Below, one piece after another: positions 1,003-59,895 of a stretch of DNA of 59,895 nt; position 1 is the stretch's first letter, and each line of letters begins with the position of its first letter. Made by a program: the position numbers and the translations under genes. The DNA comes from a virus. The notes under the pieces are model-generated. The model saw nothing but the letters and a program-made list of their open reading frames with translations, searched no databases and was not told where the DNA came from. Where the stretch lies: positions 1 to 59,895 of IMG/VR virus record IMGVR_UViG_3300030101_002103; one strand, written 5' to 3'.

Positions 1003-2583
1003 ATGCAAGAACAAGGATACATTCCAAAAGACCTATCATTTAATGAAGAGGCAAGAGAAAAACTAATATCGGGAATCTCAAAAATATCTAACGCAGTTAA
1101 ATCAACTCTGGGCCCACAGGGCCAAACTGTATTGATTGAATCAACTAACCATACTCAAGGATTGACAGTAACTAAAGACGGTGTGACTGTAGCTAAGTCT
1201 ATCTTTCTTTTAGATCCTGTAGAGAACCTTGCGGTTCGTATGATGAAACAAGCATCAGAGAAAACTGCAAACACCGCAGGAGATGGAACAACTACAGCTA
1301 TTGTCTTGACTGAGGCTTTAGTTAAAGCTGGTCAAAAATATATTAAGGATGGAGAAAACCCTATACAAGTTATCCGTCAGATTAGAGAGCTCGGTGAGAA
1401 GGTTCTTAAAAGAATCAAGGAAGAGTCAATTGAGGTAACTGATGATATGTTAAAAGATATCGCAACAATCTCTGCAAACAATGACAGTGAGATTGGTGAG
1501 ATTATAGCTAAGGCTTACAAAGAAGTAGGTCGTGATGGTATAGTAACTGTTGAGAGATCTCAAACAGATGATACATATGCTGAGGTTACTAATGGTATCA
1601 AAGTAGATAGAGGTTGGACTTCTCCTATGTTTATTAATGATCAAAGAAAAGATGAGTGTATTTATGAAGATGTAAAGATTCTTATATGTGACTCTGAGAT
1701 TAATAACATCTTACAAATTGAGAATGTATTAAAACCTATTATTAATGCAGGAGAGAAACTTCTTATAATTGGAGACTGCTCACAAAATGTAATTAATACT
1801 ATGGCTGCTAATGTTCAGCGTAATGGTTTAAAGTTCTGTAATATTAAACCACCTTCATTTGGATATAAGACTCACGAGTTAATGCAAGATATTGCTTTTG
1901 CAGTAGGAGCTAAATACTTTTCAGAAAAAACAGGAGATGATTTATCTCTAATTAGAACAGAAGACTTAGGTCATGCAGATAAAATAATTGTAGGTAAAGA
2001 CAATACTATTATTATTAAAGATGGTGAGATTACTAAGGAGACTACAGCCAGAGTAGAGGAGCTTAGAGAACAACAGCAAAGACTTACTGCTAAACATGAA
2101 AAGGATTTCATCAATGAAAGAATAGCAAGTTTAGTTGGAGGGATCGGTTGTATACAGGTAGGGGCTACTTCTGATATAGAGCAAAAAGAAAAATTCGACA
2201 GAGTCGATGACTCTGTCTGTGCAGTGCGTTCCGCCCTGCAGGAAGGAATAGTTGCTGGAGGAGGATTATTATTACATAGTTTAGCTAAAGAACTAAAAGG
2301 AAAAAATACAGCTAATAAAATTCTTAAGGAAACACTACAAGCACCACTACAACAAATTCTTGTAAATGCAGGTTTAGATAAAAAGGACATCTATAAAGAA
2401 AAGCTTAAAAAGAACTACGGATATAATGTTGCTACTGGTGAATATGGAGATATGTTTAAAATGGGAGTAATTGATCCTGCTAAAGTAACTACTCAAGCAT
2501 TATCTAATGCTATTAGTGTAGCGACTACCATACTTACTACTAATGCTATAATAACTCACGCAAGAGCTGGTCAAGATGATTAA
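1003..2583 (+). CDS. groEL: Phage-encoded chaperonin GroEL
   Basis: This 526-aa group I chaperonin folds proteins in an ATP-driven double ring. Visible family marks are STLGPQGQTV near residue 37, the ATP-site motif GDGTTTA at about 94-100, and VRSALQEGIVAGGG near 405-420. It is about 20 residues shorter than E. coli GroEL and lacks the GGM-rich C-terminal tail, ending THARAGQDD. groES follows 62 nt later, so the phage carries a full chaperonin pair, probably for capsid or tail protein folding. The ATG sits behind an A/T-rich leader with no Shine-Dalgarno site, as usual in Bacteroidetes. Its own promoter and the upstream repeats suggest separate regulation. Confidence 0.96.
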   Translation: MQEQGYIPKDLSFNEEAREKLISGISKISNAVKSTLGPQGQTVLIESTNHTQGLTVTKDGVTVAKSIFLLDPVENLAVRMMKQASEKTANTAGDGTTTAIVLTEALVKAGQKYIKDGENPIQVIRQIRELGEKVLKRIKEESIEVTDDMLKDIATISANNDSEIGEIIAKAYKEVGRDGIVTVERSQTDDTYAEVTNGIKVDRGWTSPMFINDQRKDECIYEDVKILICDSEINNILQIENVLKPIINAGEKLLIIGDCSQNVINTMAANVQRNGLKFCNIKPPSFGYKTHELMQDIAFAVGAKYFSEKTGDDLSLIRTEDLGHADKIIVGKDNTIIIKDGEITKETTARVEELREQQQRLTAKHEKDFINERIASLVGGIGCIQVGATSDIEQKEKFDRVDDSVCAVRSALQEGIVAGGGLLLHSLAKELKGKNTANKILKETLQAPLQQILVNAGLDKKDIYKEKLKKNYGYNVATGEYGDMFKMGVIDPAKVTTQALSNAISVATTILTTNAIITHARAGQDD

Positions 2584-4331: not shown

Positions 4332-4535
4332 ATGGCAAAAAAAGGAAGAACTAAAGCCTTCCCAGAAATAAAAGAATCTCGTCAGGGAGCTTTTACGAAG
4401 TGGGCTAAGAATAACGGATTCAAAGATACGTGTAGTGCAGCTTCTACTGTTATGAAGAATACAAAAAAGTATTCTAAAAAAGTAGTATCAATGGCTAACT
4501 ACGCTAACAACTTTGGATGTAAAACGAAAAAGTAA
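4332..4535 (+). CDS. Small conserved phage protein, GAFTKWAK type (67 aa)
   Basis: The layout is MAKKGRTKAFPEIK, then GAFTKWAKNNGF, AASTVMKNTKKYSKKVV and ANYANNFGC. I recall this arrangement from small proteins in marine phage genomes, but I cannot name a function. It is packed 2 nt after the previous stop. It could be a minor virion or DNA-binding protein (inference). Confidence 0.7.
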   Translation: MAKKGRTKAFPEIKESRQGAFTKWAKNNGFKDTCSAASTVMKNTKKYSKKVVSMANYANNFGCKTKK

Positions 4536-4536
4536 T

Positions 4537-4677
4537 ATGGGTAAATTATTAATATGGTTAGGAGAGTCTATCTCTAACTTATGGTGTAAATTTCAATGCA
4601 ATTGGAATTGGTTAGTTTCTAAAGTAATATTTAGTGTAGACGCTTGTCCTAATAAATTATGCACTTGCAAGAAATGA
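4537..4677 (+). CDS. Small Trp/Cys-rich protein (46 aa)
   Basis: MGKLLIWLGESISNLWCK begins an amphipathic or membrane-leaning segment. Several Trp and five Cys follow, ending CPNKLCTCKK. The ATG is one base after the previous stop, and the TGA overlaps the next ATG in an ATGA junction, which supports it as real. The Cys pattern could bind a metal ion. The function is unknown. Confidence 0.55.
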   Translation: MGKLLIWLGESISNLWCKFQCNWNWLVSKVIFSVDACPNKLCTCKK

Positions 4678-4862
4678 AAAGACATAAATCTAATATATTA
4701 AACGAAATGAAATCAAGAGGACTGGGAGATACTATTGAAAAGTTTACTAAAGCTACAGGAATTAAAAGAGTAGTAGAAACGGTTTCTAAAGCAACAGGAA
4801 AAGACTGTGGATGTAATAAAAGAAGGGATAGTTTAAATAGAGCTTTTCCTTACGACAAATAA
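4674..4862 (+). CDS. Small conserved phage protein, GDTIEKFTKATGIK type (62 aa)
   Basis: I take the ATG at 4674, which overlaps the previous TGA, over the longer start at 4659. The core GDTIEKFTKATGIK, then CGCNKRRDSLNRAFPY, is a pattern I recall from other Bacteroidetes phages, but its role is unknown. The CxC and basic C-terminus may bind metal or nucleic acid. Confidence 0.7.
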   Translation: MKRHKSNILNEMKSRGLGDTIEKFTKATGIKRVVETVSKATGKDCGCNKRRDSLNRAFPYDK

Positions 4863-4873
4863 AAATAAAAAAA

Positions 4874-5431
4874 ATGGCATATCAAAAATTACAAAGTAGA
4901 GAAGCATTAGCGGTTATACCAAATGATCAAGTTCGTATACCTGATCCTTCATCAATAGTATCCTTAGATCCTATCAGAGTTTCAGGTGGGGTAGTAACAG
5001 GTACAGGTGCAACTGTATCGACAGGAAATTTTGGAAGTACAACTTTAATTGATTCTTCAGGAGTTGATTTTGAAGATTTAGGGATTAAAGCTGGAATGAT
5101 AGTTTATAATACTACTGCTGGATTAGCATATACTGTAGTTTCTGTTGATAGTGCTACACAACTTACTATTACAGGATCGGTAGCGGGTGGAGCAACTGAT
5201 AGTTATTCTATATATGCAAGACCTACTAACGGTTGTACTTTATTTGTAGGAAATACAGGGGCGGTAACTGTAAGAATGGCTGAACAAAATGGAAACACTA
5301 CAACAGCAGCGGCTCCTGCTAATCAAACAGTAACATTTGGAAATATAGCAAACGCTACGTTTATGCCTATACAAGTAGTTCAAGTAACTGTAACCGAAAC
5401 AACAGCTTCGGGAATTGTAGCAATGTGGTAG
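4874..5431 (+). CDS. Putative virion (decoration or spike-like) protein (185 aa)
   Basis: This is a beta-rich, Gly/Thr/Val-rich protein typical of phage surface proteins. Residues ~60-100 (VDFEDLGIKAGMIVYN, then YTVVSVDSATQLTI) match a small beta-barrel pattern common in phage structural proteins. It has few charged residues. It stands first in a set with 5433 and 5875, which also look like virion proteins. The exact position in the particle is unknown. Confidence 0.7.
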   Translation: MAYQKLQSREALAVIPNDQVRIPDPSSIVSLDPIRVSGGVVTGTGATVSTGNFGSTTLIDSSGVDFEDLGIKAGMIVYNTTAGLAYTVVSVDSATQLTITGSVAGGATDSYSIYARPTNGCTLFVGNTGAVTVRMAEQNGNTTTAAAPANQTVTFGNIANATFMPIQVVQVTVTETTASGIVAMW

Positions 5432-5432
5432 T

Positions 5433-5870
5433 ATGATTAGTAATGCCATATCTAACTCAAACGGAGCTCAAAAAGTAGCAGGCGGGGAAGCACCTTCAAA
5501 TCCCGAGCTTATTAGCAATGGAAGTTTTGAAGAAGGTCAAGAAGGTTGGTTAGTTGTTCCTACCGTAAATTTTAAAGGAGGAGTAGACGCAATAATAGGT
5601 CCCGCAGAAAGACCTCCTTATGCAGCTATTGGCCAGGCAGTTTTAGAAAATGGACTTTCTTATAATGTGGTTATAGAGGTAGAAGCAATATCAGAAGAAG
5701 CAACTTATAATGTTCTTGATGGATCAAATGAAAGCGTATATAATATAACGTCTACAGGAACAAATTCTTTTTCTTTTACAAATAGCGAAGGCACTACTTT
5801 TAGTATTGCCGCTTTATTTCCTGGAGAGGGAAGTATTACAATTACAAATGTATCAGTAAAAAAATCATAA
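5433..5870 (+). CDS. Carbohydrate-binding-module-like virion protein (145 aa)
   Basis: ELISNGSFEEGQEGW at about residues 25-39 is the typical start of a CBM4_9-type jelly roll. Beta strands follow and end in ITITNVSVKKS, which also fits that fold. Such modules bind polysaccharide, so a role in touching host capsule or marine glycans is likely. There is no catalytic part. It starts one base after the previous stop. Family assignment is moderate and the host-binding role is inference. Confidence 0.7.
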   Translation: MISNAISNSNGAQKVAGGEAPSNPELISNGSFEEGQEGWLVVPTVNFKGGVDAIIGPAERPPYAAIGQAVLENGLSYNVVIEVEAISEEATYNVLDGSNESVYNITSTGTNSFSFTNSEGTTFSIAALFPGEGSITITNVSVKKS

Positions 5871-5874
5871 TACT

Positions 5875-6441
5875 ATGGCAACAATACCAAGCGATCAGAA
5901 ATTTCACACAGTACCAGGGTTTGTAGACACAAAGCAACAAGGCTCAGCACAAGCAAATTCTAATAGAGGTGTCTTTACTATGCAAGACATTATAGACACT
6001 TATTCTACAGCACCATTTCTTTATCAAGAATATGTGGGCACTTTTACAAGAGCTGACTTAAATGCTTTAGCTGGATCTCCAGCAACAGAAATAATAGCGG
6101 GTGTTCCTAATAAGTCGCTTATTGTTGAAGAAACTTATTGGACCGTAAATATTGATGGAGCAGGAGCATACACTCCTTTAACTCCAGGTAGTATGAATGT
6201 AATTCAAGCTACAGCAACTACAGGAAACCTGACGGTATCTTCATTTCCTCATGAGAGAATAAATCAAATCCTTAATGCGGAAACAGATCAAGCTACTTAT
6301 TTTAGAGATGTTCCAGTTTCTGGAAATAGAGTTTATTCTTTAAATAAACCTACTCGACTTTTTGTTCCTAATAATTTTGTATTTCCTGATAGATTTGTTT
6401 CTTTAATTTTAAGACTAAAATACAGAACTATACCTTTATAA
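5875..6441 (+). CDS. Putative virion protein (188 aa)
   Basis: This beta-rich protein has a short N-terminal arm (FTMQDIIDTYS at ~38-48) and ends FVSLILRLKYRTIPL. The end resembles the end of the 9331 protein (LKINFRYRTVSGFTL), so the two may share a domain. It follows the CBM-like gene closely. It is probably a tail or surface protein; the function is not known. Confidence 0.65.
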   Translation: MATIPSDQKFHTVPGFVDTKQQGSAQANSNRGVFTMQDIIDTYSTAPFLYQEYVGTFTRADLNALAGSPATEIIAGVPNKSLIVEETYWTVNIDGAGAYTPLTPGSMNVIQATATTGNLTVSSFPHERINQILNAETDQATYFRDVPVSGNRVYSLNKPTRLFVPNNFVFPDRFVSLILRLKYRTIPL

Positions 6442-6452
6442 AATAAATAATT

Positions 6453-6698
6453 ATGCCTACAAACAATAATAACAAAACCGATAAAAAACATCGGGACGAG
6501 AAAAAAAATAAAAAAAGACTGGCTGAGTTGGCTGCTTATGCTAAAAAGAAAAAGATTCCAAAACCGCCACCACCAGGTAAACTTAAAGATCCAGTAAAAG
6601 AAAGATTAAATAATTTAAGAAAAAGTAATTCACTTCTTGCTTTGTATGGAGGTATTAAAGATACTGTCAACGCTGTTAAGAACAGAAATAAAGGTTAA
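6453..6698 (+). CDS. Small Lys-rich protein (81 aa)
   Basis: The protein starts with a charged MPTNNNNKTDKKHRDEKKNK stretch, then a Pro-rich KKKIPKPPPPGKLKDP linker, and a C-terminal helix RLNNLRKSNSLLALYGGIKD. It closes the unit before the promoter at 6708. No function is recognised. Confidence 0.6.
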   Translation: MPTNNNNKTDKKHRDEKKNKKRLAELAAYAKKKKIPKPPPPGKLKDPVKERLNNLRKSNSLLALYGGIKDTVNAVKNRNKG

Positions 6699-6707
6699 AA
6701 ATTTTAT

Positions 6708-6715
6708 TATCTTTG
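6708..6715 (+). promoter_or_regulatory. Promoter TATCTTTG giving a nearly leaderless mRNA
   Basis: The element is in the extended form ATTTTATTATCTTTG. Only 5 bases separate its last base from the ATG at 6721. With a start about 4 nt after the element, the mRNA would have almost no leader. It heads the lysis cassette. Confidence 0.7.
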
Positions 6716-6720
6716 TAATC

Positions 6721-6801
6721 ATGAATTATACACAAACTACAACAGGTGGAGCAATCGTAGAATGGCACGAAACCTCAACCTATAATATTAAAAATGCCTA
6801 A
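6721..6801 (+). CDS. Leader peptide or tiny protein (26 aa)
   Basis: MNYTQTTTGGAIVEWHETST is encoded directly behind the 6708 promoter, and the ORF overlaps the next gene by 8 bases. It may be a real micro-protein or a leader that couples translation into the holin-like gene. The evidence is position only. Confidence 0.4.
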   Translation: MNYTQTTTGGAIVEWHETSTYNIKNA

Positions 6802-6952
6802 GGAAATGAAAGATACTGTTGAAGTAGTTGCTGCGAATGGTGGAGCTTTAGGTTTAACATTAATGCAGGTAAACGAGATGCTTCAATTTGTTTCTCTTTC
6901 ACTTGCTATTGCCTTCACAATTTATAAGTTTATAAAGAAAAAAGAAAATTAA
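6794..6952 (+). CDS. Small single-TM protein, possible holin (52 aa)
   Basis: After a charged start (MPKEMKDTVEVVAANG), one hydrophobic helix covers roughly residues 28-43 (FVSLSLAIAFTIYKF), followed by KKKEN. Its size, single membrane helix and position 2 nt before the endolysin gene fit a small holin or pinholin. The true holin could instead be the 3TM protein at 8489. Confidence 0.6.
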   Translation: MPKEMKDTVEVVAANGGALGLTLMQVNEMLQFVSLSLAIAFTIYKFIKKKEN

Positions 6953-6954
6953 CC

Positions 6955-7317
6955 ATGAAATATTTTACCTTTAAAGAATTTGATTCTCCAGATGAGCCAG
7001 GTTCAGGTAAACATATGGACAGGGATTTTTTAGATATGCTTGACACCGCTCGAGAAGAAGCTGGTGTAGTATTCAAAATATCCTCTGGATTTCGTACAGA
7101 GGCTTACAATAAAGATTTATTAAAAAGAGGTTATAAGGCTTCAAAAAATAGTTCACACTTAAAAGGGTGTGCTGCAGATATTGTTTGTACAGATTCTGCT
7201 ACAAGAAGTATAATAGTTAGAGCTTTAATAAATGTCGGGTTCACCAGATTGGGGATTGCAAAATCCTTCATCCATGTGGACAGCGACTCTAAGCCTGACG
7301 CAATATGGTTATATTAA
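6955..7317 (+). CDS. Endolysin, peptidase M15A (zinc D-Ala-D-Ala-type)
   Basis: This 120-aa Peptidase_M15 protein cleaves peptidoglycan stem peptides. The zinc motif SSHLKGCAAD gives H68 and D75 in the HxxxxxxD spacing, and FIHVD gives H107. SSGFRTEAYN at ~43-51 is the usual family motif. There is no signal peptide, so it needs a holin, and candidates flank it at 6794, 8283 and 8489. Length and motifs are complete. Confidence 0.92.
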   Translation: MKYFTFKEFDSPDEPGSGKHMDRDFLDMLDTAREEAGVVFKISSGFRTEAYNKDLLKRGYKASKNSSHLKGCAADIVCTDSATRSIIVRALINVGFTRLGIAKSFIHVDSDSKPDAIWLY

Positions 7318-7318
7318 G

Positions 7319-7477
7319 ATGGCAAAGAAAGGAAGAGTTAAGAGTAAAGGAAATAAAATTTGTAAAGCAGGAAAAGACTGGGCTATGAGAACTTATGGTA
7401 AATGGTCAGCTTATGCTGCAATGGGAGCTTCTAAATACTGTAAAGATCCTAACTACGCTAAAAACAAAAAGAAATGA
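7319..7477 (+). CDS. Small conserved basic protein, GKDWAMRTYGKWSAYAAMGAS type (52 aa)
   Basis: I use the ATG at 7319, which lies one base after the endolysin stop, because the longer frame overlaps the endolysin. MAKKGRVKSKGNKICKAGKD is followed by a helical core with Trp, Tyr and Cys. The MAKKGR start is shared with the gene at 4332. No function is known. Confidence 0.7.
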   Translation: MAKKGRVKSKGNKICKAGKDWAMRTYGKWSAYAAMGASKYCKDPNYAKNKKK

Positions 7478-7605
7478 TAGATAAAAAGAAACTTAAAACA
7501 ATAGCTTCTGAATTAAAGAAAGCTTCTGCTATGCATAAAAGCCAAGCTGTTAGAATAGATAAAATGTTAAAATCTATGAAACCAAAGCCTAAAAAGAAAA
7601 AGTAA
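7474..7605 (+). CDS. Small helical Lys-rich protein (43 aa)
   Basis: MIDKKKLKTIASELKKASAM starts a single amphipathic helix, and the tail is Lys/Pro (MKPKPKKKK). The start overlaps the previous TGA (ATGA) and the stop overlaps the next ATG (TAATG), so it is embedded in a coupled chain. The function is unknown. Confidence 0.6.
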   Translation: MIDKKKLKTIASELKKASAMHKSQAVRIDKMLKSMKPKPKKKK

Positions 7606-7844
7606 TGGCTGGAGCTTTAAAAAAATGGAGAGACGAAAAGTGGGTTCGTATAGGAACTGATGGATCTATATTAGGCCCTTGCGGAACCAGTAAAGCTAAA
7701 AAGAATCCAGCAAGATGTTTACCCTTGTCTAAAGCTAAATCATTAAGTAAAACAGAAAGAGCGTCAACAGCCAGAAAGAAAAAAAGATCAGGTGGAAGAA
7801 AACAATTTGTAATGAACACTAAAAAAGCAAAAGTAAGATCATGA
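7605..7844 (+). CDS. Small conserved Lys/Arg-rich protein (79 aa)
   Basis: The pattern LKKWRDEKWVRIGTDG, then GPCGTSKAKKNPARCLPLSKAKSL and RKKKRSGGRKQ, is one I recall from small proteins in many aquatic phages and some giant viruses. Two Cys flank a basic segment and might bind zinc or DNA. It is translationally coupled on both sides. No proven function is known to me. Confidence 0.7.
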   Translation: MAGALKKWRDEKWVRIGTDGSILGPCGTSKAKKNPARCLPLSKAKSLSKTERASTARKKKRSGGRKQFVMNTKKAKVRS

Positions 7845-7981
7845 AAACATCAGCAATGCGTAAAAAATACAAAAAGAAACAGTTAAGTAAAGGTCAGAAA
7901 AAGATTGCAAAAGCTGCACCTCCTTATGATGCTATAACAAAAGCGGACTTTACTGTTCTTAATAAAAATAAAAACGCTTAA
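7841..7981 (+). CDS. Small conserved protein, KGQKKIAKAAPPYDAIT type (46 aa)
   Basis: The segment LSKGQKKIAKAAPPYDAITK, then ADFTVLNK, resembles a tiny conserved motif I recall from marine phage genomes. The ATG overlaps the previous TGA. It is very short, but the motif and overlap make it likely real. Confidence 0.6.
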   Translation: MKTSAMRKKYKKKQLSKGQKKIAKAAPPYDAITKADFTVLNKNKNA

Positions 7982-7989
7982 CATAAATA

Positions 7990-8283
7990 ATGGCAGTTAG
8001 CAAAAAAAATATGAAATGCAATGTTGTTCGTTCCAGCACCAGACCTGGTAAAAAACGAATGGTAAAAGCATGTGAAGGTGGTAAGGAAAAGATTATTCAT
8101 TTCGGTGCTAAGGGTTATGGTCATAACTATTCAGCTGCCGCAAGAAAATCTTTTAAAGCCAGACATAAGTGTGGTACTGCTAAATCAAAATTAACCGCAA
8201 GATATTGGGCTTGTAAAAATTTATGGGCAGGTAAAGGAGGATCAACAAAATCAAGCCCTAAAAGCAGAAGGGGTAAATACTAA
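7990..8283 (+). CDS. Small conserved Cys/Lys-rich protein, KSFKARHKC-YWACKNLW type (97 aa)
   Basis: The region from about residue 33 to 75 has IIHFGAKGYGHNY, ARKSFKARHKCGTAKSK and LTARYWACKNLWAGK. I know this signature from marine phages and algal giant viruses, where the role is unknown. Two Cys, a His and many basic residues allow a small zinc or nucleic-acid-binding fold (inference). Its stop overlaps the next ATG. Confidence 0.75.
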   Translation: MAVSKKNMKCNVVRSSTRPGKKRMVKACEGGKEKIIHFGAKGYGHNYSAAARKSFKARHKCGTAKSKLTARYWACKNLWAGKGGSTKSSPKSRRGKY

Positions 8284-16453: not shown

Positions 16454-18885
16454 AAGATGTCAAAATAGATATAAACTCTGCTGCGTTTCCTGATCAATTT
16501 GCAACTGACAAACAAAAGGCTACAGATGAATTTGGTCTGCAAGTAGGACAGGCAATACAATATGAGTGGTTTAGAAAAGACGGCATGCGTTGTAGGTTTT
16601 ATAATCAATGGAATGAATTTCATAGATTAAGACTTTACGCAAGAGGAGAACAATCTGTAGCCAAATATAAAAATGAATTAGCAGTTGATGGGGATTTATC
16701 CTATCTAAATTTAGATTGGACTCCAGTTCCAATTATACCAAAATTTGTTGATATCGTAGTTAACGGAATGTCAGACAGATTATTTAAAGTTAACTGTATA
16801 GCCATGGACGCTTTGTCTGCTGAAAAAAGAAATCAATTTCAGACAATGGTAGAAACCAATATTGTGGCTAAAGAATTATGGACTCAATTAGAAAGTGATT
16901 TTAAAGTTAAAATGTTTAATGTAGATCCTGAAACCTTACCAACAAGTGATACGGAAATGGAATTATACATGCAGCTTAACTATAAACCTTCTATAGAAAT
17001 AGCTAATGAAATTGCTATCAACACAATGTTGGAGGAAAATCATTATGCTGATATAAGAAAAAGAGTTGATTACGATATTGCTACTTTAGGAATTGGAATG
17101 TGTAAACACATGTTTCAACAAGGAGATGGCATAAGAGTAGAATATGTAGATCCTGCTAATGTAGTTTATAGCTATACCGAAGATCCTTATTTTAAAGATT
17201 GTTTTTATTGGGGGGAGATTAAAACTTTACCTATAGCGGAATTAGTAAAGATAGATCCAAACATTACAAATGAAGAGATGGAGGAAATATCTAAATATAG
17301 TCAATCATGGTATGATTACTATAATGTAGCCGCAATGTATGAAAACAGTATGTTCTCAAGAGATACCTGTACGCTTTTGTATTTTAATTATAAAACCACT
17401 AATAGTTTTGTTTATAAGAAAAAACAAATGGCTGAGGGAACTTTTAAAACTGTAGAAAAAAATGATGAGTTTAATCCTCCACAAGAAATGATGGATGAAG
17501 GAAACTTTGAAAAAGTAGAAAAAAGAATTGATGTATGGTATGAAGGAGTAATGGTAATGGGAACTAATATTATTCTTAAGTGGGATATGATGGAGAATAT
17601 GGTAAGACCTAACTCGGCTAATCAATATGCTTATCCTAACTATGTGGCTTGTGCTCCAAGAATGTACAAAGGAGTATTAGAGTCTTTAGTAAGAAGAATG
17701 ATTCCTTTTGCTGACCTTATTCAGTTAACACATTTAAAAATACAACAAGTAGTTTCTAAAGTAGTTCCAGATGGAGTATTTATTGATGCAGACGGATTAA
17801 GTGAAGTTGATTTAGGAACAGGAGCAGCTTATAATCCTGAGGATGCTTTACGATTATATTTTCAAACAGGTAGTGTGGTTGGAAGAAGTTATACGCAGGA
17901 TGGTGAGTTTAATAATGCAAAACAACCTATTAGTCAGTTAACTTCAAGTAGCGGTCAAAGTAAAATGCAAATGCTGGTTGGTAACTACAATCATTATTTA
18001 AATATGCTTCGTCAAGTAACAGGATTAAATGAGGCTCGAGACGCATCCACACCAGATCCTAACTCTTTAGTTGGTATACAAAAATTAGCTGCTCTGAATT
18101 CTAATGTAGCTACTCGACATATATTAAATGCAAGTTTATTTATTACTCAAAGATTAGCCGAATGTTTATCTATTAGAACTGCAGATGTATTAGAATATTC
18201 AGAGTTTGCAGATGAATTTGCAATGCAAATTGGTAAATATAATTTAGGAATATTAGAAGAGATTAAAAATCTTTACATATATGACTTTGGTATATTTATA
18301 GAAATGACTCCTGATGAAGAAGAAAAACAGCAGTTAGAACAAAATATACAAATGGCTTTACAAAACGGAGGAATTGATTTAGAAGACGCAATTGATATTA
18401 GAACTATCAATAATTTAAAAATGGCTAATCAATTACTTAAAGTAAAACGTAAACAAACAGAAGTTGAAAAACAAAAACAACTTCAACAGCAACAAGCCAT
18501 GCAAGGACAGCAAGCACAACAGCTGCAACAAATGAAAGCTCAAGCTGAGATGCAAAAAACCCAACAAGAGTTACAAGCTAAGATTCAAATTAAACAAGCT
18601 GAAATTGCTTTTGAAATTGAAAAACAAAACAATGAAGCAAATCTTAAACGTAGATTAATGGATGCTGAGTTTAATTATAATATGCAACTTAGAGGAATGG
18701 AGCAAGAGCAAATAGATATGCGTGAGCAAAAGAAAGAAGATGGTAAAGCAGAAAGAATTACTATGGCTAACACCCAGCAGTCTAAAATGATTGAGCAGCG
18801 TAAAAGAAATCTTCCTCCAATTAACTTTGAATCTAATGAAGATAGTTTAGATGGGTTTGATTTAGCGGAATTTGATCCAAGATAA
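16450..18885 (+). CDS. Portal protein (811 aa)
   Basis: This large protein lies between terminase and scaffold/capsid genes, where the portal is expected. It has a mixed core with YARGEQSVAKYKNELAVDGD and VDIVVNGMSDRLFKVN, and a helical crown region (VTGLNEARDASTPDPNSLVG, then AALNSNVATRHILNAS). About 150 C-terminal residues are Gln-rich coiled coil (LQQQQAMQGQQAQQLQQMKA). The long crown/barrel suits podovirus-like portals. The ATG overlaps the terminase TGA. Confidence 0.85.
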   Translation: MKDVKIDINSAAFPDQFATDKQKATDEFGLQVGQAIQYEWFRKDGMRCRFYNQWNEFHRLRLYARGEQSVAKYKNELAVDGDLSYLNLDWTPVPIIPKFVDIVVNGMSDRLFKVNCIAMDALSAEKRNQFQTMVETNIVAKELWTQLESDFKVKMFNVDPETLPTSDTEMELYMQLNYKPSIEIANEIAINTMLEENHYADIRKRVDYDIATLGIGMCKHMFQQGDGIRVEYVDPANVVYSYTEDPYFKDCFYWGEIKTLPIAELVKIDPNITNEEMEEISKYSQSWYDYYNVAAMYENSMFSRDTCTLLYFNYKTTNSFVYKKKQMAEGTFKTVEKNDEFNPPQEMMDEGNFEKVEKRIDVWYEGVMVMGTNIILKWDMMENMVRPNSANQYAYPNYVACAPRMYKGVLESLVRRMIPFADLIQLTHLKIQQVVSKVVPDGVFIDADGLSEVDLGTGAAYNPEDALRLYFQTGSVVGRSYTQDGEFNNAKQPISQLTSSSGQSKMQMLVGNYNHYLNMLRQVTGLNEARDASTPDPNSLVGIQKLAALNSNVATRHILNASLFITQRLAECLSIRTADVLEYSEFADEFAMQIGKYNLGILEEIKNLYIYDFGIFIEMTPDEEEKQQLEQNIQMALQNGGIDLEDAIDIRTINNLKMANQLLKVKRKQTEVEKQKQLQQQQAMQGQQAQQLQQMKAQAEMQKTQQELQAKIQIKQAEIAFEIEKQNNEANLKRRLMDAEFNYNMQLRGMEQEQIDMREQKKEDGKAERITMANTQQSKMIEQRKRNLPPINFESNEDSLDGFDLAEFDPR

Positions 18886-21642: not shown

Positions 21643-22437
21643 ATGAAAAAGATAACCAAATCTGTTGCAAAACAGTATAAACTTAAAAGTGAGGTAGCAC
21701 CATTGTGCTTTATGTTAAACTCTCACCACAACAAAAGATCACCATTACTTTATTTTGATGAAGAAACAGGAACTAACCGACCTCTTCGTTATGCAAGAAA
21801 TCAAAAAAGCCCATTTGAAGATGAGCAAGATGGAAATGCAATTATGGAACCTATTATTTTTGAAGACGGGTTTTTAAATGTAGAAAGAAGTAATCAGGTG
21901 TTGCAAGAATTTTTATCATTACACCCTGGTAATGGAATGATATTTGAAGAAATAAATCATGCTAAAGACGCTGCTCAAGATTTAGAAGTAGAAGAGTTAG
22001 TTTTAGACGCTCAGCTTTTAGCAAGAGATTTAGATATAAATACTTTAGAAACTTTAGGTAGAGTTTTATTAGGGAGAGATACTTCTAAAATGTCTACTGC
22101 AGAATTAAAAAGAGATGTATTAGTATATTCTCGTACTTATCCGTCAGACTTTATTGATGCTTTAAATGATCCTGCTTTACAATTACAAGATGATGTAGTT
22201 AAGTTTTTTAGCAATAATCTTTTACAATCAAGAAATAAAGGTAGAGATATTTACTTTAATCTTCCAACTAATAAAAAGAAAATGTTAACAGTTCCATTTG
22301 GAGAAGATCCTTATGACATCGCAGCTTCTTATATGCAAACTGATGATGGTATAGAAACTTATAAACTTCTTAAAAAAGTATTAGGAGGAGATGAAAAGCC
22401 TAAACCTAAAAAGAAAGCTAAGGTTACTGAAGAGTAA
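21643..22437 (+). CDS. Hypothetical head-module protein (264 aa)
   Basis: This mixed, mostly helical protein starts MKKITKSVAKQYKLKSEVAP and ends in a Lys/Glu tail (KPKPKKKAKVTEE). An internal acidic helical region is followed by LNTLETLGRVLLG-like helices. It is flanked by terminators on both sides, so it is a single-gene unit fed by read-through or an unseen promoter. It may be a head assembly protein (inference from position). Confidence 0.7.
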   Translation: MKKITKSVAKQYKLKSEVAPLCFMLNSHHNKRSPLLYFDEETGTNRPLRYARNQKSPFEDEQDGNAIMEPIIFEDGFLNVERSNQVLQEFLSLHPGNGMIFEEINHAKDAAQDLEVEELVLDAQLLARDLDINTLETLGRVLLGRDTSKMSTAELKRDVLVYSRTYPSDFIDALNDPALQLQDDVVKFFSNNLLQSRNKGRDIYFNLPTNKKKMLTVPFGEDPYDIAASYMQTDDGIETYKLLKKVLGGDEKPKPKKKAKVTEE

Positions 22438-58064: not shown

Positions 58065-58102
58065 TTTATTTAATTTTAATTGTGCGAGGAATATCCCTCT
58101 AC

Positions 58103-58140
58103 CACCAAAAGCCCACTACTTTCATAGTGAGCCAAAGGTG
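58103..58140 (-). terminator. Possible hairpin terminator
   Basis: CACC/GGTG and GC-CACTA/TAGTG-GC pairs form a long interrupted stem. On the minus strand TTTT follows the inner stem. It is a weak terminator or mRNA-stabilising hairpin in the gap 58065-58154. Confidence 0.4.
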
Positions 58141-58154
58141 TCCTACACACACAA

Positions 58155-58244
58155 TTAGTATTTATTCTTATTTATTTTTCTATATGCTTGTGCCTTTTGT
58201 TTTTTTACTTGTCTCTTGACTTCTATCGTTCTAAATGTTCCCAT
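58155..58244 (-). CDS. Tiny Lys/Arg-rich peptide (29 aa)
   Basis: The peptide is MGTFRTIEVKRQVKKQKAQA, ending in YRKINKNKY, after an A/T-rich leader AATTAAATAAG. It is short, so it could be spurious. Confidence 0.35.
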   Translation of the reverse strand: MGTFRTIEVKRQVKKQKAQAYRKINKNKY

Positions 58245-58456: not shown

Positions 58457-58576
58457 TTAATGGTATGCTGGACATTTATTGTAATTCTTTACATAACTAC
58501 CCCCACAACTACTTGTTGAGGCACAACTCGATAGTAAGAATGTCAATACTACCATTGCTAAAATTATCTTTTTCAT
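58457..58576 (-). CDS. Small lipoprotein downstream of hammerhead A (39 aa)
   Basis: MKKIILAMVVLTFLLSSCAS has a typical lipobox LSSC, and the mature tail (TSSCGGSYVKNYNKCPAYH) carries two more Cys. Ribozyme cleavage would leave a 25-nt leader (AGTATTAACAAACACATACA...) before this ATG. It is too short for the ORF threshold, but the signal peptide is strong. Confidence 0.65.
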   Translation of the reverse strand: MKKIILAMVVLTFLLSSCASTSSCGGSYVKNYNKCPAYH

Positions 58577-58593: not shown

Positions 58594-58668
58594 TTAATAC
58601 TGACTATGTTAGTTTCGATCGGAATTCCTAACATAGTTTCGTCCCATCAGGACTCATCAGAGTATTTA
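58594..58668 (-). ncRNA. Type-I hammerhead ribozyme A
   Basis: On the minus strand stem I is AATACT/AGTATT. The core CTGATGA is followed by stem II GTCC/GGAC (loop TGATG), the core GAAA, and stem III CTATGTTAG/CTAACATAG with a 15-nt loop. GTC at 58604-58602 is the cleavage triplet. Cleavage lies between 58602 and 58601. All invariant hammerhead residues are present. Its 5' end overlaps the TAA stop of the 58666 gene, and the next ATG is 25 nt after the cut. Confidence 0.93.
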
Positions 58669-59094
58669 TATATGTAGTGTTAATTCTCTCTCATAATCTA
58701 AAACACCTTTCTCAATATGCATTCTATATCCTACATCAAAAGGTAAATATTCAACTATTACCCTACCCACATCATCATCCTCTTCTCCTTTCCATTCCAT
58801 ATCTCCCTCGGCATAAATCAAATGGTCACTTGCTTTACTCCAATCAAGTAACTTTTTTAGGAAGAATTTTATCCATTGCTTACCCTCGTAAGTTTTTTCA
58901 CTACCATTCCATCTAAACTCCTTTCCATCAATGCAGAAATCACACCATATACTTGGAAACTTTCTTTTTGGGTTTCCATAGTTATACTCGCTATCGTGCC
59001 TATTCTCTACAATAGTATTCCATTCTTTTAACTCTTGTTGTTTTAATGGTCTGCTTAATTTTAAACTACCATTCCAATCGGTATTATATCCCAT
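58666..59094 (-). CDS. Hypothetical protein between hammerheads B and A (142 aa)
   Basis: I start at the ATG at 59094 (MGYNTDWNGSLKLSRPLKQQ) because an upstream in-frame start would lie inside hammerhead B. The protein has many Trp and charged residues (KFPSIWCDFCIDGKEFRWNG, then DVGRVIVEYLPFDVGYRMHI). The pattern of Trp and acidic runs resembles uncharacterised phage proteins of this arm. Its stop is part of hammerhead A. Confidence 0.65.
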   Translation of the reverse strand: MGYNTDWNGSLKLSRPLKQQELKEWNTIVENRHDSEYNYGNPKRKFPSIWCDFCIDGKEFRWNGSEKTYEGKQWIKFFLKKLLDWSKASDHLIYAEGDMEWKGEEDDDVGRVIVEYLPFDVGYRMHIEKGVLDYERELTLHI

Positions 59095-59110
59095 TTTATT
59101 TGTGTGTTTG

Positions 59111-59174
59111 TTAATACTGACTATCTCAGCTGAGATAGTTTCGTTCCATTTCAGGAAACTCATCAGAGTATTTA
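59111..59174 (-). ncRNA. Type-I hammerhead ribozyme B
   Basis: On the minus strand stem I is AATACT/AGTATT. CTGATGA is followed by stem II GTTTC/GGAAC (one T-G wobble; loop CTGAAAT), GAAA and stem III CTATCTC/GAGATAG with the AGCT tetraloop, then GTC. Cleavage lies between 59119 and 59118. It begins on the TAA stop of the 59172 gene, and the next ATG is 24 nt after the cut. The stem sequences differ from copy A while pairing is kept, which is good evidence for a selected RNA structure. Confidence 0.93.
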
Positions 59175-59411
59175 GTATTTGTATAAATTATTATTTTGCA
59201 ACGCTTCAAAAATATTTGTTGTTTTAAATTCTTTTTCTGTTAACTCTTCGTTTGCACCACTAATGGAATGAAAAATTGTAAAGGTGTTTGTTTCTGTATT
59301 ATAAATTATTTCTTTGCTACTTCTTACCATTCCATTTGCTAACGATATAAAACAATCTAAATAATCTTCTGTATGTTGTTTTATTTGGTTTATATTTTTA
59401 ATTCTTTCCAT
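59172..59411 (-). CDS. Hypothetical protein (79 aa)
   Basis: The protein is MERIKNINQIKQHTEDYLDC, then MVRSSKEIIYNTETNTFTIF and SISGANEELTEKEFKTTN. It is a mixed alpha/beta protein ending NNLYKY. It is 3 bases from the 59415 gene. Its TAA is the 5' edge of hammerhead B. No function is recognised. Confidence 0.6.
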   Translation of the reverse strand: MERIKNINQIKQHTEDYLDCFISLANGMVRSSKEIIYNTETNTFTIFHSISGANEELTEKEFKTTNIFEALQNNNLYKY

Positions 59412-59414
59412 TCT

Positions 59415-59600
59415 CTATTTATTTATTTCGTTATAAAATTGTTTTATTTGTTCCTGACTCATCTCAATATCGTAGGTGTCAGTTAATTCTTTGCTCCATA
59501 CACATATCCAAATGCTTTTAGTTTGTTGGTTTACCCAAGTATCTAAATCGTATGTTTTATTGATATAATCGGATGTTTGCTCTAATTGTGTTAAATTCAT
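59415..59600 (-). CDS. Hypothetical protein downstream of hammerhead C (61 aa)
   Basis: I start at the ATG at 59600 (MNLTQLEQTSDYINKTYDLD), 24 nt after the cleavage site of hammerhead C. The longer frame would translate through the ribozyme. TWVNQQTKSIWICVWSKELT suggests a small beta fold. The function is unknown. Confidence 0.6.
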   Translation of the reverse strand: MNLTQLEQTSDYINKTYDLDTWVNQQTKSIWICVWSKELTDTYDIEMSQEQIKQFYNEINK

Positions 59601-59616
59601 TTGTGTGTTGATTAAG

Positions 59617-59679
59617 TTAATACTGACACCATATGAAATGGTGTTTCGCCAAAATTTCATTGGCTCATCAGAGTATTTA
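59617..59679 (-). ncRNA. Type-I hammerhead ribozyme C
   Basis: On the minus strand stem I is AATACT/AGTATT. CTGATGA is followed by stem II GCCAA/TTGGC, GAAA and stem III CACCAT/ATGGTG (loop TTCAT), then GTC. Cleavage lies between 59625 and 59624. Stems II and III share little sequence with copies A and B but keep pairing. It begins on the TAA stop of the 59677 gene. Confidence 0.93.
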
Positions 59680-59886
59680 TCCTACCATTGATTTGTATTG
59701 CTCCCAATCTCTATATCCTACTCTTGAATACAATACAGAATTCAATGCCTCAATATTACTTCCATTGATAGAGGTAACTAATCTCAACTCATTTTCAGTA
59801 GCAATTCCATACTCTACGATATTATCCCATACCTCATCAAAAGAATATGTTCTTTTCTTACGCTTTTTTAACTCCACTTCTACCAC
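59677..59886 (-). CDS. Conserved-looking phage protein at the right edge, possibly partial (69 aa)
   Basis: The segment TYSFDEVWDNIVEYGIATEN, then ELRLVTSINGSNIEALNSVL and YSRVGYRDWEQY, is helical and looks like phage proteins of this size I have seen. The only start in the window is GTG, and the frame stays open to the window edge, so the gene may extend further. Its TAA overlaps hammerhead C. Confidence 0.6.
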   Translation of the reverse strand: MVEVELKKRKKRTYSFDEVWDNIVEYGIATENELRLVTSINGSNIEALNSVLYSRVGYRDWEQYKSMVG

Positions 59887-59895
59887 TTGCTTTAA

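Follow-up and report, generated by a model that had tools for sequence, protein, structure and literature searches.

Can self-cleaving RNA divide a phage operon into separate messages? The question is raised by IMG/VR virus record IMGVR_UViG_3300030101_002103, in which three type I hammerhead ribozymes (HHRs) were predicted, from the sequence itself, to lie between genes of one minus-strand operon and to cut its polycistronic RNA. We analyzed positions 1 to 59,895 of this record, a stretch that we call the window; the record behind it comprises 60,613 bases. The best reading of the locus, and in our judgment a probable one, is intercistronic mRNA maturation, in which the HHRs would act as punctuation in the 5' part of a long phage operon.

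Clustered hammerheads have been described before. Perreault et al. 2011 reported clusters that flank individual genes or short blocks in prophages, including a triple arrangement around ardA in Agrobacterium tumefaciens and others in C. scindens and A. caulinodans, and proposed that a long phage RNA is processed into single-gene mRNAs (PMC3088659). Three tandem arrangements cleaved in vitro and the A. tumefaciens triple arrangement cleaved in Escherichia coli; the survey did not settle what role hammerheads play in bacteria and phages (PMC3088659). Because these clusters precede the case in the window, the array belongs to a known kind, and the original prediction was mistaken in taking a phage operon divided by hammerheads to be new. 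Nor are three tandem HHRs a maximum, as other phage records hold seven and eight.

Identification of the hammerheads

A search descriptor that requires pairing returned exactly three matches in the window (A, B, and C), and 60 dinucleotide shuffles gave no match. With a covariance model derived from the HHRs of other phages (19 sequences, this record excluded), we independently recovered A (53.4 bits, E = 3.3e-15), C (46.6 bits, E = 7.3e-13), and B (41.8 bits, E = 3.5e-11). The three predicted hammerheads are therefore real, and the cuts anticipated after the C at 58602, 59119, and 59625 coincide with the independently predicted sites. The count of three applies to the window; a fourth HHR, which scored 48.0 bits with the same model (all four copies, E = 3.3e-15 to 3.5e-11), lies just outside it and was invisible to the first reading because the window stops at a run of ten Ns (record 59896-59905) inside gene 2. 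All four copies fall within about 1.5 kb, in keeping with the proximity of clustered phage hammerheads.

58596..58666, minus strand: hammerhead A, type I, C17 at 58602, predicted cut between 58602 and 58601
59113..59172, minus strand: hammerhead B, type I, C17 at 59119
59619..59677, minus strand: hammerhead C, type I, C17 at 59625
Record 60042-60100, beyond the window: fourth HHR, core nucleotides intact, one stem I mismatch

In copies A to C the elements follow the order AATACT-CTGATGA-stem II-GAA-stem III-C-AGTATT, and the core CTGATGAG..CGAAAC..GTC occurs three times on the minus strand (58602-58660, 59119-59166, and 59625-59671). As predicted, stem I (AATACT/AGTATT) is common to the three, and stems II (5 bp in each) and III (10, 9, and 7 bp in A, B, and C) differ in sequence with pairing kept. 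Stem II of A reads GTCCT-GAT-GGGAC and is followed by GAA and a long stem III hairpin; B combines GTTTC..GGAAC with stem III ACTATCTCA/TGAGATAGT, and C combines GCCAA/TTGGC with ACACCAT/ATGGTGT. CUGANGA, GAA, and NUH at the cleavage site, the core of the hammerhead class, are present in the right order. Stem I is open and holds both ends while loops close stems II and III, which is the type I arrangement.

Since the descriptor itself demands pairing, we relied on two pairing-independent tests. First, among hits found by core letters only, at least five contiguous stem I pairs were present in 49%, compared with 2.2% when partners were shuffled; about half of such hits resemble chance, so the stem I pairing rate among real ribozymes must exceed 49%. 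Second, a gapless alignment of the 19 sequences showed two-sided changes at 14 of the 17 pairs, with 97.5% of cells paired and a covariation score of 0.925, compared with 0.199 for shuffled data. Covariation across three helices is a mark of the hammerhead class, and stems that covary indicate a structure held by selection.

These findings bear on the idea that the elements are structural relics, i.e., noncutting hairpins that serve as a terminator, an RNase block, or an RNase III site. The stem I mismatch in the fourth copy would fit such a reading, as would the minimum free energy fold of copy B, which is a competing ACTC/GAGT hairpin and not the hammerhead. We consider relics highly improbable: the core nucleotides required for catalysis, needless in a plain hairpin, are intact in all four copies, and the hairpins are not followed by a U-tract.

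An Rfam search had been proposed as a check. At gathering thresholds it gave no hits for the window copies, which thus stay below the curated hammerhead cutoffs; the sub-threshold matches at A to C were to RAGATH-1-hammerhead (RF03152; 27.1, 26.6, and 22.9 bits, less than half of the 56.3 cutoff) and also to Hammerhead_3. The RAGATH-1-hammerhead shares the core, its order, and the open stem I, but the extra 5' hairpin of that model is not clear here. Gathering thresholds also yielded no hits at phage loci L147, L120, L109, L036, and L007, which hold up to six clear HHR copies. Because Rfam overlooks obvious copies in other phages, its negative result in the window weighs little and points to a limit of the models. 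Comparison of HHR DNA with cultured phages by blastn produced chance matches only, and the covariance model succeeded where blastn did not.

The phage and its operon

By its terminase, the phage groups with podoviruses of Flavobacteriia. The protein is 72.5% identical to that of metagenomic phage MW202828.1, 46% identical to that of Elemovirus (Flavobacterium sp. BAL314), and 37-38% identical to those of Cellulophaga phages phi19:3 and phi38:1. No HHR was found in MW202828.1, the closest phage by terminase. The window also encodes a GroEL-type chaperonin (1003-2583, plus strand, PF00118).

The minus-strand operon begins with a predicted promoter, gene 1, the fourth HHR, a second hairpin element, and gene 2, and continues with hammerhead C, genes 3 and 4, hammerhead B, gene 5, hammerhead A, and gene 6. 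Past gene 6 there are about twenty or more genes without HHRs, so that most genes of the operon lack one. The claim that A, B, and C lie between coding genes of one operon was borne out by the following features.

59677..59895, minus strand: gene 2, 3' part, with its start past the 10-N gap (record 59896-59905)
59415..59600, minus strand: gene 3, 61 amino acids, no family match
59172..59411, minus strand: gene 4, 79 amino acids, its stop codon giving the first stem I base of hammerhead B
58666..59094, minus strand: gene 5, 142 amino acids (MGYNTDW...), PHROG 38666, its stop codon giving the first stem I base of hammerhead A
58457..58576, minus strand: gene 6, 39 amino acids, PHROG 22308

Gene 4 matched Imm15 under the Pfam cutoff (19.7 bits versus 22.9), and none of 84 pattern matches to possible gene 4 homologs was confirmed. 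Judged by its sequence, the gene 6 product resembles a small lipoprotein (MKKIILAMVVLTFLLSSCAS...). Eight orthologs on viral contigs, with 48-51% identity, indicate that gene 5 is a real gene. The element upstream of gene 5 varies among these orthologs: L036/L195 (one contig) carries an HHR, L190, L191, and L194 carry a different hairpin, and no recognized element was found upstream of the remaining orthologs. The ribozyme is therefore not essential to gene 5 in all phages.

The second intercistronic hairpin element consists of GCCTCA..TGGGGATTTCGTGGTA, an A-rich leader, and an ATG. It is present at window positions 58078-58156 and record positions 59920-60035 (both minus strand), as well as in L190, L191, L194, and L196 to L204. 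In L190, L191, and L194 it occupies the place ahead of the gene 5 ortholog that the hammerhead has in the window and in L036. Against Rfam, nothing matched the window copy at E<10.

Sequence, covariation, position, and recurrence are the grounds on which A to C are identified. It is well supported that they are intercistronic type I hammerheads, and we infer that they cut the polycistronic RNA.

Spacing between stop codon, cut, and start codon

The original prediction held that stop-to-cut and cut-to-ATG distances are the same in all copies. This is true of the cut-to-ATG distance (24, 24, and 25 nt). The stop-to-cut distance varies (52, 53, and 64 nt), reflecting different lengths of the stem III hairpins. 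What is constant on the upstream side is the 5 nt from stop to core in A, B, and C, where the TAA gives stem I its first base; at hammerhead C this is the TAA of gene 2 (59679-59677).

Similar spacing was found in other viruses. Among the 142 viral type I HHRs listed, which are matches and not a census, a stop codon fell within -20 to +6 of the core in 115 (91 of 815 random positions), an ATG lay 15 to 40 nt past the cut in 96 (74 of 815), and both occurred together in 83 (58%, compared with 9 of 815, or 1%); the counts are not independent, because related contigs share ancestry, and the tally of neighboring genes is built on open reading frames and not on curated annotation, yet clearly different phages are included. 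Leaders in L147 and L120, for instance, carry Shine-Dalgarno sequences, while those of the flavobacterial phages are A-rich. The L109 record holds eight HHRs in a row (4454-8173, 3.7 kb). In six of these copies, the TAA adjoins the core without a gap (GATTAA-CTGATGA); in the other two, the best stop found is 5-6 nt earlier. The cut is placed 20-22 nt ahead of an ATG in seven of the eight. In L120, the stop codon TGA is itself part of the catalytic core CUGAUGA.

Given a stop codon at stem I, ribosomes that terminate there would unfold the ribozyme, and cutting should await the gaps between ribosomes. A translation-coupled switch would go further, with ribozymes that mainly sense upstream translation and act as regulators, not as constitutive processing sites. 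A ribosome on the upstream stop would block folding, and the cut would occur only once upstream translation ceases, altering the fate of both halves. Such a switch would accord with a stop codon that touches or overlaps stem I in most copies, reaches the core in six of the eight L109 copies, and lies inside the core in L120. However, simple packing of the ribozyme against the stop codon in dense phage genomes should produce this overlap as well, and the sequence carries no sign of regulation. We think a switch possible but unlikely as the main role, and it is compatible with mRNA maturation, not exclusive of it.

Separate hairpins at type III sites

In a type I hammerhead, the upstream RNA keeps the ribozyme body as a 3' hairpin, and the downstream RNA begins with a short, clean leader. 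The body of a type III hammerhead travels with the downstream RNA. If the upstream message needs a 3' hairpin, type III sites should carry a separate one. Among the matches listed, which again are not a census, a hairpin with 6 bp or more that ended at most 3 nt upstream of the motif was present at 19 of 37 type III HHRs and at 9 of 161 type I HHRs, and it was found at 91 of 990 random positions (enrichment at type III HHRs, Fisher P = 3e-10). The 36 nt upstream of type III HHRs had a mean folding energy of -11.05 versus -4.52 kcal/mol and a mean z-score of -2.41 versus -0.48; the GC content of the type III set is higher (0.49 versus 0.38), for which the z-scores allow. Strong separate upstream hairpins are found, for example, at L221, L231, L255, L256, L283, and L309. 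Alternatively, the type III upstream hairpin may stack on stem III and aid folding.

Two flanking ribozymes might also free a gene-length RNA that is then circularized or rejoined. Gene-length RNAs between two HHRs are indeed predicted, and ligation is possible in principle with a type I body that sits beside the cyclic phosphate (PMC3088659). Against this, Perreault et al. sought spliced or circular products and detected none (PMC3088659), and in some families, the window phage not among them, the stem I strand is repeated downstream, where it would trap the product and work against religation. We give circularization or ligation very little probability.

Leaders downstream of the predicted cuts

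A Bacteroidetes-type promoter (TTTG-18-TATATTTG) is predicted at about record position 60376, directly upstream of gene 1, and would drive a transcript with the leader ATATTAACAAATACATACACAAAAA. A general promoter scan gave 11 consensus matches against 9.7 expected, i.e., the consensus is no commoner in the genome than by chance. For this reason we used only the match directly upstream of gene 1, as a prediction. Cleavage of the three window hammerheads is predicted to release the following leaders.

59601..59624, minus strand: leader released by hammerhead C, 24 nt, AGTATTAACTTAATCAACACACAA
59095..59118, minus strand: leader released by hammerhead B, 24 nt, AGTATTAACAAACACACAAATAAA
58577..58601, minus strand: leader released by hammerhead A, 25 nt, AGTATTAACAAACACATACAAACAA

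Across the entire 60.6-kb record, the motif TATTAAC-N-ACA-N-ATG is confined to four sites, gene 1 and the three HHR-released genes; shuffled sequences contained a mean of 0.92 and a maximum of 3. Because this motif was picked after the leaders had been viewed, a ranking by similarity is the better test. When 41 gene leaders were ranked by similarity to the promoter leader, the HHR leaders took places 1, 2, and 4. One HHR leader ranked first in each of L037 (19 genes) and L045 (14 genes), where the second HHRs ranked 5 and 9. The remaining genes of the operon mostly have AATTAAATAAA-type leaders. This resemblance suggests a shared leader function, and after cleavage the downstream genes would have 5' ends similar to that of the primary transcript.

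Some phages repeat the 5' strand of stem I in the leader that follows the cut (L011, L014, L016, L026, L027, L030, and L046; L055; L074), and the released 5' end can fold into a hairpin of its own (AGTATCATAAGATAC, TTAGACAATCAAGTCTAA). We considered such product-recapture hairpins as a general mechanism and rejected it, since hairpins of at least 6 bp were found in 4 of 151 cases, not a clear enrichment, and the window phage has no clear hairpin of this type.

Cultured phages and Flavobacteriales chromosomes

Two cultured phages carry type I HHRs with stop and start spacing like that in the window, but with a single confident copy each in the records searched. Neither record has a ribozyme annotated.

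17290-17347 of NC_055852.1: type I HHR of Flavobacterium phage vB_FspP_elemoA_7-9A, E = 5e-15
21769-21817 of NC_021789.1: type I HHR of Cellulophaga phage phi19:3, 35.7 bits

In elemoA_7-9A, an unannotated frame of 21 codons closes with a TAG that ends 5 nt ahead of the core, and the cut is placed 28 nt before gp69. The RefSeq coding sequence KNV10_gp68 (NC_055852.1, 17275-17382), on the strand opposite the hammerhead, is probably spurious. In phi19:3, the TAA of gp051 runs up to the core, and the start of gp050 is 34 nt past the cut.

A strict-pattern search of GTDB identified HHRs in 12 Flavobacteriales genomes (L174 to L185), all at one orthologous site between the stop codon of a TonB-dependent receptor gene (Pfam PF00593 and PF07715 in the copy tested) and the gene for a small Cys/His-rich lipoprotein. 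The cut mostly lies 23-27 nt ahead of the ATG, a phage-like distance. Examples of these type I hammerheads are L181:5188-5243 and L175:2642-2695. Each of four genomes checked has one copy, and one copy resides on a 1.39-Mb contig, which makes it chromosomal. The receptor and lipoprotein operon may possibly serve in metal uptake. In the open-licence literature, we found no paper linking hammerheads to Flavobacterium phages, Bacteroidetes, or TonB-dependent genes, which is not proof of absence.

Recurrence of this kind could also arise from mobile or selfish punctuation, a small cassette of ribozyme and leader that moves between phage genes through recombination or gene swapping and brings the phage little benefit. 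In the window copies and L045, stem I and the leader are nearly identical around differing stem III sequences, presence and absence differ between orthologous gene borders, and self-cleaving ribozymes are common in selfish elements, according to Perreault et al. (PMC3088659). Nevertheless, the covarying stems reveal a structure under selection, the stop and start spacing is held across unrelated phages, and 12 Flavobacteriales genomes keep the element at a single orthologous operon on the chromosome. We judge a selfish origin of this pattern to be improbable.

Discussion

The motif, its covariation, its geometry, the similarity of the leaders, and its recurrence were all observed; from them we infer cleavage in this phage's RNA, the resulting mRNA products, protection of their ends, and coupling to translation. 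Under mRNA maturation, the ribozyme would fold behind the passing RNA polymerase and cut the nascent RNA just past stem III, about 50-65 nt beyond the upstream stop codon and 24-25 nt ahead of the next ATG. Type I topology means that the whole body (stems II and III) would remain on the upstream mRNA, which would keep its stop codon intact and acquire a structured 3' terminus with a 2',3'-cyclic phosphate at its end. The downstream mRNA would begin with a 5'-OH and a short A-rich leader similar to that of the predicted promoter. In effect, one promoter, with no internal promoters or terminators, would yield a series of single-gene mRNAs whose 5' ends are promoter-like and whose 3' ends are protected by a hairpin.

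The clusters of Perreault et al. 2011 resemble the window array in having several hammerheads per transcript, placed between or around single genes, with a proposed role in RNA processing; they differ in host group, and neither "bacteroid" nor "stop codon" appears in the main text (PMC3088659). The overlap of stop codon and stem I, the fixed cut-to-ATG distance, and the promoter-like leader were measured here, and in the open-licence literature we found no description of these features, of the type III hairpin, or of the Flavobacteriales operon. Another relative is the hammerhead variant HHphage, known from haloviruses HF1 and HF2, which lies 13 nt ahead of a start codon in a lytic virus (PMC3088659). 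In contrast to the window array, it concerns a single gene of an archaeal virus, has a variant structure, and forms no intergenic array (PMC3088659).

More broadly, hammerhead punctuation may be a general operon-processing system of phages, with one case on bacterial chromosomes. In such a system, the ribozyme would be locked to the stop codon, release the following gene behind a copy of the promoter leader, and leave a hairpin upstream of the cut, which would be its own body in type I and a separate hairpin in type III, replacing internal promoters, terminators, and host RNases. We advance this generalization tentatively, at somewhat less than an even chance. Standard Rfam thresholds overlook this group of hammerheads. 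The spacing rules give it a specific, testable role, the production of single-gene mRNAs with defined ends, and elemoA_7-9A and phi19:3 are two cultured phages in which that role can be tested. In the 12 Flavobacteriales genomes, the HHR at an orthologous operon of the chromosome would mean that cells, too, use this device.
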